This document shows positions 43,899 to 45,886 of a DNA stretch of 64,000 bases, piece by piece (positions within the stretch are counted from its first letter, which is position 1; each line of letters begins with the position of its first letter). Position numbers and translations under genes: made by a program. This DNA is from Alkalispirochaeta americana. GTDB taxonomy: Bacteria > Spirochaetota > Spirochaetia > DSM-27196 > Alkalispirochaetaceae. The stretch spans positions 248,001 to 312,000 of the forward strand of contig NZ_FTMS01000001.1 of NCBI RefSeq assembly GCF_900156105.1, given 5' to 3'. The notes beneath the pieces are model-generated. The model had not been told where the DNA came from. It searched no databases and saw only the letters and a program-made list of their open reading frames with translations.

Positions 43899-44372
43899 AT
43901 GCCAAGACGACACATTCCTCAGCGGAAGCCGCCTCTGGCGGATCCTCAGTATGGAGATGTTACCGTTTCCCGGTTTGTGAATCGCATGATGCTGGACGGG
44001 AAGCGTGCTACCAGTCAGCGGATCATGTACGAAGCCCTCGGTGACATAGAAAAGAAAGTCTCCGATGCCACCCCTGTCGAGGTGTTTCGCAAGGCCCTGG
44101 ATAACGTCATGCCCGTCATCGAGGTTAAAAGCCGCCGGGTGGGTGGTTCGACCTACCAGGTTCCGGTGGAGGTCAAGGAAGGGCGTCGTGAAGCTCTGGC
44201 AATGCGCTGGATAATTAACGCCGCCCGTTCCCGCAGTGGCAAATCCATGGGGTTGCGGCTGGGTCAGGAGCTGGTCGATGCCTACAACGGCACCGGGACG
44301 GCTTTCAAGAAGAAGGAAGATACCCATCGGATGGCAGAGGCAAACAAAGCTTTTGCTCATTACCGCTGGTAA
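43899..44372 (+). CDS. rpsG: ribosomal protein S7
   Basis: S7 nucleates assembly of the 30S head and contacts the E-site tRNA. The 157-residue protein has the family start MPRR and the helical core [21 protein letters not shown]. In many bacteria fusA follows directly; here there is a 323-base gene-free stretch before tuf. Confidence 0.98.
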
Positions 44373-44397
44373 AATCAAAAACCCTGGTGACATGCCA

Positions 44398-44425
44398 TTG
44401 CAATGATGGTATAGTCATCTATAAG
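44398..44425 (+). promoter_or_regulatory. possible promoter upstream of the structured gap
   Basis: TTGCAA (44398-44403), a 16-base spacer and TATAAG (44420-44425) would start a transcript about 12 bases before the first hairpin of the rpsG-tuf gap. The evidence is the two boxes only. Confidence 0.35.
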
Positions 44426-44440
44426 TTTTCGGGATTATGT

Positions 44441-44555
44441 GCGTGCCGCCGGGTTTTTGGTGGCACGCAAACTGGCCCCGAGGAGCCAAACCGCAGGCTT
44501 TTGCCTGCAGGTGGCGCCGTACAGCTGTGGCCGTTGGCCTGGCAGACCCCTGCGG
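44441..44555 (+). other. multi-hairpin structured region between rpsG and tuf
   Basis: No credible protein gene lies here. Hairpins are GCGTGCCGCC/GGTGGCACGC (44441-44468, ten pairs), TGGC/GCCA (44473-44488), GCAGGC-TTTT-GCCTGC (44493-44508) and GGCC-GTT-GGCC (44529-44539). CCGCAGG (44491-44497) can instead pair with CCTGCGG (44549-44555), which excludes the third hairpin. It could be a small RNA or a read-through control element. Confidence 0.4.
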
Positions 44556-44565
44556 CTTCCTGTTC

Positions 44566-44595
44566 TTGACAACAAGAGCAATGGTTCCTTATAAT
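44566..44595 (+). promoter_or_regulatory. consensus sigma-70 promoter of tuf
   Basis: TTGACA (44566-44571) and TATAAT (44590-44595) are both perfect consensus boxes, 18 bases apart. The untranslated leader to tuf would be about 95 bases. This is the strongest-looking promoter in the window. Confidence 0.85.
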
Positions 44596-44695
44596 CCAGT
44601 CCCAATTCAGATTACCGGTCGGGGGTTCCTTGCCGGTGCAGTCTGTGCGAACATTCAATTATTTTCGTCGTTGTAACGGTGCAAGGAGGATGGCG

Positions 44696-45886
44696 ATGGC
44701 CAAGAGTAAATTCGAGCGAACAAAACCGCACGTAAACGTCGGTACGATCGGTCATGTTGACCATGGAAAGACAACGCTGACAGCAGCAATGACAATGGTG
44801 AGCGCTGCGCGCTACGGCTCCCGTGTCATGAGTTATGATGAGATCGACAACGCTCCCGAAGAAAAAGAGCGAGGTATCACGATCAACACACGGCACGTTG
44901 AGTATGAGACGGATGCCCGTCACTACGCTCATGTCGACTGTCCCGGGCACGCTGACTATGTCAAGAACATGATCACCGGTGCTGCCCAGATGGATGGTGC
45001 TGTGCTGGTTGTTGCTGCCACTGATGGTGCGATGTCCCAGACCCGGGAGCATATTCTGCTTGCTCGTCAGGTAGGTGTTCCCCGGATCATTGTTTTTATC
45101 AACAAAACCGATCAGGTTGATGATCCTGACATGATCGAGCTTGTTGAAGAAGAGGTTCGGGATCTCCTGAACTCCTACGATTTTCCCGGCGACGAAGTTC
45201 CTGTTATCAAGGGAAGCGCTTTTGTTGCAATGGAAAACCATGACGATGCCGAAAAGACCGAGAAAATCATCGAGCTTTTCAACGCCATGGACGAGTACTT
45301 TCCTGTTCCCGAGCGGGCCGTGGACAAGGATTTTCTCATGCCAATTGAGGATATCTTCTCCATTCAGGGTCGTGGAACGGTTGTTACCGGCCGTATCGAG
45401 CGTGGTATTCTTCGGGTTGGTGATGAGATTGAGATCGTGGGTATCCGCGATACCCAGAAGACCACCTGTACCGGTGTAGAGATGTTTAACAAGCTTCTTG
45501 ATGACGGTCAGGCCGGTGATAACGTTGGTGCCCTGCTTCGGGGTATCGACAAAAAGGCTGTTGAGCGGGGTCAGGTTCTTGCGAAGCCTGGTTCGATCAC
45601 TCCTCATACCAAGTTCAAGGGTCAGGTGTATGTCTTGAGCAAGGAAGAGGGCGGTCGTCATTCACCCTTCATGTCGGGTTATCGTCCCCAGTTCTACTTC
45701 CGGACAACCGACGTGACCGGGACTGTTATGTTGCCCGAGGACAAGCAGATGGTTATGCCCGGTGACAACACCGAGATTTCTGTTGAGTTGATCAAGCCGA
45801 TCGCTATGGATCAGGGGCTGCGCTTCGCGATTCGCGAAGGTGGCCGAACGGTTGCCAGCGGTCAGGTGATTGAGGTCATAGAGTAA
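44696..45886 (+). CDS. tuf: elongation factor Tu
   Basis: EF-Tu delivers aminoacyl-tRNA to the ribosome. The start is ATG 44696, six bases after AAGGAGG; the in-frame ATG at 44690 directly abuts that site. The 396-residue protein has GHVDHGKT (residues 19-26), [15 protein letters not shown] and the NKTD guanine motif. It is transcribed from its own promoter and ends before a terminator-like hairpin. Confidence 0.98.

Follow-up and report, generated by a model that had tools for sequence, protein, structure and literature searches.

A conserved structured RNA upstream of tuf in the class Spirochaetia that appears to be a remnant of fusA

In the analyzed 64,000-nucleotide stretch of the Alkalispirochaeta americana genome (the window; positions 248,001 to 312,000 of contig NZ_FTMS01000001.1), the genes rpoB-rpoC-rpsL-rpsG are followed by a gap without a recognizable gene and then by tuf-rpsJ-rplC-rplD-rplW and the remainder of the S10 operon (Table 1). 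In agreement with the original prediction, which was derived from this stretch of DNA alone, the gap comprises 323 bases (44373–44695, between the end of rpsG at 44372 and the start of tuf at 44696), the tuf promoter matches the consensus at all positions, and the suspected promoter boxes further upstream correspond to an extended -10 site with 10 of the 12 matches. The structured element, previously placed at 44398–44565, does lie in this interval, but the start of the interval falls inside the upstream promoter (44387–44415); the RNA in the window probably starts near 44422. A site similar to the upstream promoter is present at the equivalent place in most of the seven analyzed members of the same family, the tuf promoter scores 11–12/12 in all seven, and several of these genomes possess both.

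Table 1. Genes, predicted promoters and predicted RNA structures in the rpsG-tuf region of the window
Feature	Coordinates	Strand	Evidence and comments
rpsG (ribosomal protein S7)	43899–44372	+	157 aa ORF; 80–95% identity in six family relatives
Promoter-like site GTGACA-17-TATAGT, TG before -10 (extended -10)	44387–44415	+	10/12 matches; upstream of the element
Structured RNA element (P1, P2, P3, P4), model R1	about 44428–44546	+	Family covariance model, covariation
P1 (44429–44440 with 44471–44481), bearing hairpin P2 (44441–44450 with 44459–44468)	44429–44481	+	P1: 3 pairs changed on both sides
Core P3 helix (44482–44518); CCAAACC (44486–44492) opposite AGGTGG (44509–44514)	44478–44522	+	Conserved class-wide
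P4 hairpin, conserved C-GTT-G apex	44524–44544	+	89% paired, 3 pairs changed on both sides
Hairpin with the tuf -35 box in stem and loop	44562–44579	+	7 pairs, covariation in the family
tuf promoter TTGACA-18-TATAAT	44566–44595	+	12/12 matches
Small hairpin TTGTA/TGCAA adjoining the tuf Shine-Dalgarno sequence AAGGAGG	44671–44689	+	Read from the sequence
tuf (EF-Tu), first gene past the element, followed by rpsJ, rplC, rplD (S10 operon)	44696–45886	+	ORF, translation

Folding of this region is more stable than that of dinucleotide shuffles, with z = -5.6 for 44373–44520 and z = -3.2 for 44416–44565. The covariance model built for the family (R1) scores 115 bits in the window and identifies the element in 7 of 7 family members whose rpsG-tuf gap is complete, including, at the equivalent place, all six other members of the GTDB family with a readable gap (one more family member, G001, was left out for lack of an rpsG or tuf match). 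Two weak matches of this model beyond the known family sites (L132 and L133) were dropped, being located inside unrelated coding sequence. In the alignment of the seven copies, 91.7% of the cells of the four helices are paired and 12 of the 38 pairs are changed on both sides, compared to 26–45% pairing in controls with slid partners; by inspection, the pairing of P2 is kept between relatives despite almost wholly different sequences. The invariant nucleotides are part of an internal-loop motif in which CC-AAA-CC faces GG-U-GG and one additional A. The claim of a structured RNA with four hairpins is thus upheld, and the covariation of the stems in related genomes that had been proposed as a check is present both within the family and class-wide. 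The view that no credible gene explains the gap holds as well: the length of the core loop varies by non-multiples of three and therefore no gene is encoded there, which also led us to reject a hidden peptide in the core.

Two hairpins are located downstream of the element. The one at the tuf promoter, the fourth of those counted above (91.7% of its pairs form among the seven relatives, with two pairs changed on both sides), includes the -35 box itself, an unusual coincidence of a promoter box and an RNA or DNA stem. The small hairpin preceding the Shine-Dalgarno sequence recurs in many loci of the class, taking the form TTGTGAC..GTCACAA in other families, and seems to be another conserved feature of the tuf leader.

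The combination CCAAACC ... AGGTGG is common to tuf upstream regions from the order and from the class Spirochaetia. Among 62 aligned copies from the class, the core helix is 93.6% paired and 9 of its 14 pairs are changed on both sides, whereas slid controls reach 26–55%; when the family of the window is removed, the remaining 55 copies are still 94.0% paired. Model R3, which was built from these 55 sequences, identifies the copy in the window with an E-value of 5.8e-5 along with those of all six relatives, and membership in the class-wide family has therefore been tested independently; model R2 scores 36.9 bits at the core in the window. The window accordingly carries the class-wide tuf leader as defined here, i.e., CCAAACC ... 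AGGTGG in a covarying helix 100–350 bases upstream of tuf. Taken together, these comparisons of genomic sequences identify the element as a conserved, predicted folded RNA that precedes tuf across most of the class.

A search of 158 genomes of the class yielded at least 75 matches at E ≤ 1e-3, a lower bound, given that only the top candidates in each genome are scored and that the copies in the family of the window were missed. By coordinates, 72 of these matches immediately precede tuf on its own strand; two others are on contigs for which no tuf position is given, and one (in genome G159) is elsewhere. Where present, the element is practically always in a single copy per genome, immediately before tuf. 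In loci where the upstream gene is not rpsG (L211, L225, L227, L237, L240 and L242), it is still found about 100–260 bases before tuf, and therefore follows tuf rather than rpsG. Several lineages lack the element but retain tuf, which shows that it is not essential. Other classes of the phylum and 16 tuf-flanking loci from other phyla yielded no credible matches. The covariance models of Rfam 15 gave no match to the element above chance in the window and 42 related loci, and our literature search found no paper on a tuf leader RNA in spirochaetes. By comparative criteria, the predicted structure is a new RNA family.

The place between rpsG and tuf is that of fusA, the gene for EF-G (EFG I), in the str operon. 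EFG I is normally encoded there but is absent in the spirochaetes studied earlier, which use spdEFG1/2 (PMC3150367). The gap in the window contains no EF-G reading frame or recognizable EF-G peptide, the only match in the str region being tuf itself, and the three EF-G-like genes of this genome are outside the str operon on other contigs. They are on contigs C23 (6231–10427) and C11 (36437–38470) of this genome (G000), and two of the three genes are adjacent.

In families f39, f41 and f42, which belong to the sister order, fusA is intact; it is seen between rpsG and tuf in f41 and f42, and the f39 matches come from the same order. Both the covariance models built from leaders only and a position weight matrix (PWM) choose the same site in ten fusA genes of this order, the best match in the entire gene, which corresponds to the AKP[TI]IL and GGKVV codons, always spaced by 129 bases. 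The models yield E-values of 1e-10 to 5e-4 in six genes and of 0.06–0.6 in four f42 genes, and the PWM scores are 25–50 bits at this site versus at most 13 bits in those fusA genes that lack the element. No comparable match was found in the fusA genes of f17 and of a divergent f41 genome (G296) or in the 16 tuf-flanking loci of other phyla. The distance from the site to tuf, about 240–260 bases in f41, is within the range of the leaders (about 95–340, mostly 180–260 bases). The homology to fusA is established through these relatives, the copy in the window being too short on its own.

Several observations indicate that the fold is already under selection within the gene. In the ten fusA genes, 11–13 of the 13 pairs of the helix form, more than in synonymous codon shuffles (p from 0.002 to 0.038 for each gene, values that are not independent given that the fusA-bearing genomes are few and mutually related). 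These shuffles rule out mere protein conservation as the source of the match in the ten genes of f39, f41 and f42. Furthermore, a coupled synonymous swap is observed in f42, where Ala GCC becomes GCT and Val GTG becomes GTA, converting a C-G pair into U-A, and the synonymous sites of the core are more conserved than those in the rest of fusA at matched amino acids (p about 0.001). The element thus appears to be a piece of fusA, folded already within the gene and persisting when the remainder was lost. In the original prediction, homology to a degraded gene had been considered to speak against an RNA; although the core does seem to descend from fusA, this homology leaves the RNA interpretation intact, since selection acted on the fold when the gene was still complete and the fold remained conserved after the loss.

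In the phylogenetic tree of tuf, f17 branches first, followed by f35, f37, f41 and f42 in an unresolved fork, whereas the sampled leader-bearing families form a single clade (92/99) that leaves the fusA-bearing families outside; the deep forks are weak. In f35 and f37 (L199, L207, L214, L223), tuf is found 78–155 bases after rpsG, with neither fusA nor the RNA element in between, and accordingly both were lost there. The simplest history compatible with these sequences would involve a single loss of fusA that kept the embedded RNA, with the RNA itself disappearing later from a few lineages.

The comparisons indicate that an ancestor of Spirochaetia carried a helix with the invariant CCAAACC/AGGTGG core within the 3' portion of its str-operon fusA gene. 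When fusA was lost between rpsG and tuf, the segment encompassing the core was retained immediately before tuf, unlike the remainder of the gene, and the fold has since been maintained, with compensatory changes, in one large clade. The element, then, appears to be a relic of fusA without being junk, a fold nested in fusA that became a leader or intercistronic RNA of tuf. It is fairly likely that a regulatory RNA overlapping the fusA reading frame controlled the adjacent tuf gene and that, after the loss of fusA, selection kept the RNA alone, as a free-standing leader found class-wide. There are both parallels and differences with known systems. In Escherichia coli, the tufA promoters are located within fusA, i.e., regulatory signals of tuf reside inside that gene; the spirochaete element similarly represents a putative tuf control element concealed in the 3' portion of the coding sequence of fusA, but it consists of a folded RNA instead of a promoter and has persisted beyond its host gene. 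Compared to the str-operon fusA, it occupies the same position between rpsG and tuf and shares the homologous AKP[TI]IL ... GGKVV codons seen in the sister order, but the gap in the window retains no EF-G frame.

As for the role of the element, promoters with at least 10/12 matches are found upstream of the core in 25 of 74 class leaders (1.3 expected), and strong tuf promoters are found downstream of it in 19 of 74 (about 2 expected), in the family of the window and several others; in some families, no promoter is seen before the element. In the many lineages that have a promoter before the element and none behind it, the element is therefore the predicted 5' leader of the tuf mRNA. In the family of the window, which has the element's own promoter and a strong tuf promoter behind it, the element would accordingly be carried by only part of the tuf mRNA; this downstream promoter would bypass the element for much of the tuf mRNA, which weakens a purely cis leader role. 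The presence of one copy per genome, before tuf, points to a cis role. Considering all these genomic comparisons, the element is most likely a cis regulator of tuf or of the tuf-S10 operon. Our preferred interpretation, to which we assign a probability of roughly two-thirds, is that the element is a structured RNA of tuf that acts in cis, was kept from fusA, and adjusts the output of EF-Tu from the transcripts that carry it. Such an RNA would modulate the amount of EF-Tu, and perhaps the expression of the tuf-S10 operon, from these transcripts. The simplest route would be binding of a protein (EF-Tu itself, a ribosomal protein or a nuclease) to the invariant core, an internal-loop motif being the kind of site that proteins may recognize; this putative binding could alter processing, stability or translation.

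Several alternatives have to be considered. In other bacteria, regulation of the S10 or str operon is placed at the same operon-head position, and the element heads tuf-rpsJ-rplC-rplD; like the translation-operon leaders in Rfam (S10/L4, S15, L20), it is a structured RNA that opens a long ribosomal operon, immediately before a translation gene, and likely acts in cis. One possibility is autoregulation of the tuf-S10 operon through a ribosomal protein that binds to a leader imitating its site in rRNA. Unlike these leaders, however, the element matches none of the Rfam models and shows no rRNA mimicry, as no stretch of the organism's own 16S or 23S rRNA has both core strands, and we consider this possibility rather unlikely. 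An independent, trans-acting small RNA of about 120–160 bases, transcribed from the promoter at 44387–44415 and located near tuf for historical reasons only, would be consistent with the compact hairpins, with the promoter in front of them and with the perfect tuf promoter behind, which makes the RNA dispensable in the tuf mRNA of this family. Such a molecule seems quite unlikely, though, given that the element nearly always stays in single copy just before tuf even as other neighbors differ between families, that in the window no intrinsic terminator follows it on the plus strand, that some families have no visible promoter before it, and that an origin inside fusA is less natural for a free small RNA.

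The original prediction proposed two mutually exclusive pairings and a switch that controls read-through from rpsG to tuf. A riboswitch or attenuator of this type would have the AGGTGG strand exchange its partner for a downstream strand, toggling read-through or translation of tuf, and strong downstream complements do exist in some families, e.g., GATAAGGTGG with CCACTCTTATC. The alternative pairing also exists on paper in the window, but in its family the alternative helix GGAGCCA/UGGUUCC shows no compensatory changes and has at least one pair broken in several relatives, so that the read-through switch finds no support there. Class-wide, a competing downstream strand is only weakly enriched (9 of 74 leaders at p ≤ 0.05, mean p 0.35). 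Terminator-like sites are somewhat more frequent than expected by chance (18 of 74 leaders vs. 7.9 expected), but no consistent expression platform or terminator was found across the 74 leaders, and none of the Rfam riboswitch models matches the element; such a mechanism is therefore very unlikely, in our assessment. Finally, the homology of the core to fusA codons at the former place of fusA could reflect a functionless, decaying pseudogene. Conservation with compensatory changes across an entire clade, even though the rest of a 2-kb gene has vanished, along with the extra selection on synonymous sites already detectable in the intact fusA, makes decay extremely improbable. A cis-acting RNA of tuf accordingly remains our preferred reading.

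Individual loci of the class display additional features. In family f4 (L146, L151, L152, L153), a boxA-like sequence (GTTCTTTTACA / GATCTTTTACAG) precedes the core and is possibly an antitermination signal. In L042 and L043 (genomes G004 and G003, respectively), the final codons of rpsG with the stop codon (GCGTTTGCGCATTACCGCTGGTAA) are repeated once or twice past the gene, and something similar is seen in L151. Upstream of tuf in genome G069, a clear cobalamin riboswitch (110.9 bits) is encoded on the opposite, minus strand (L237:198–378).

EF-Tu is one of the most abundant bacterial proteins. The control of its production in spirochaetes is little known, and a conserved tuf leader provides a concrete handle on it, including in medically relevant lineages. 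The history proposed here is a testable case of an RNA element that originated within a coding sequence and persisted after its host gene had been deleted. The passage from fusA to leader shows one route by which new non-coding regulators can arise; if this history is correct, it would represent a regulator that outlived, across a whole bacterial class, the gene in which it was written.
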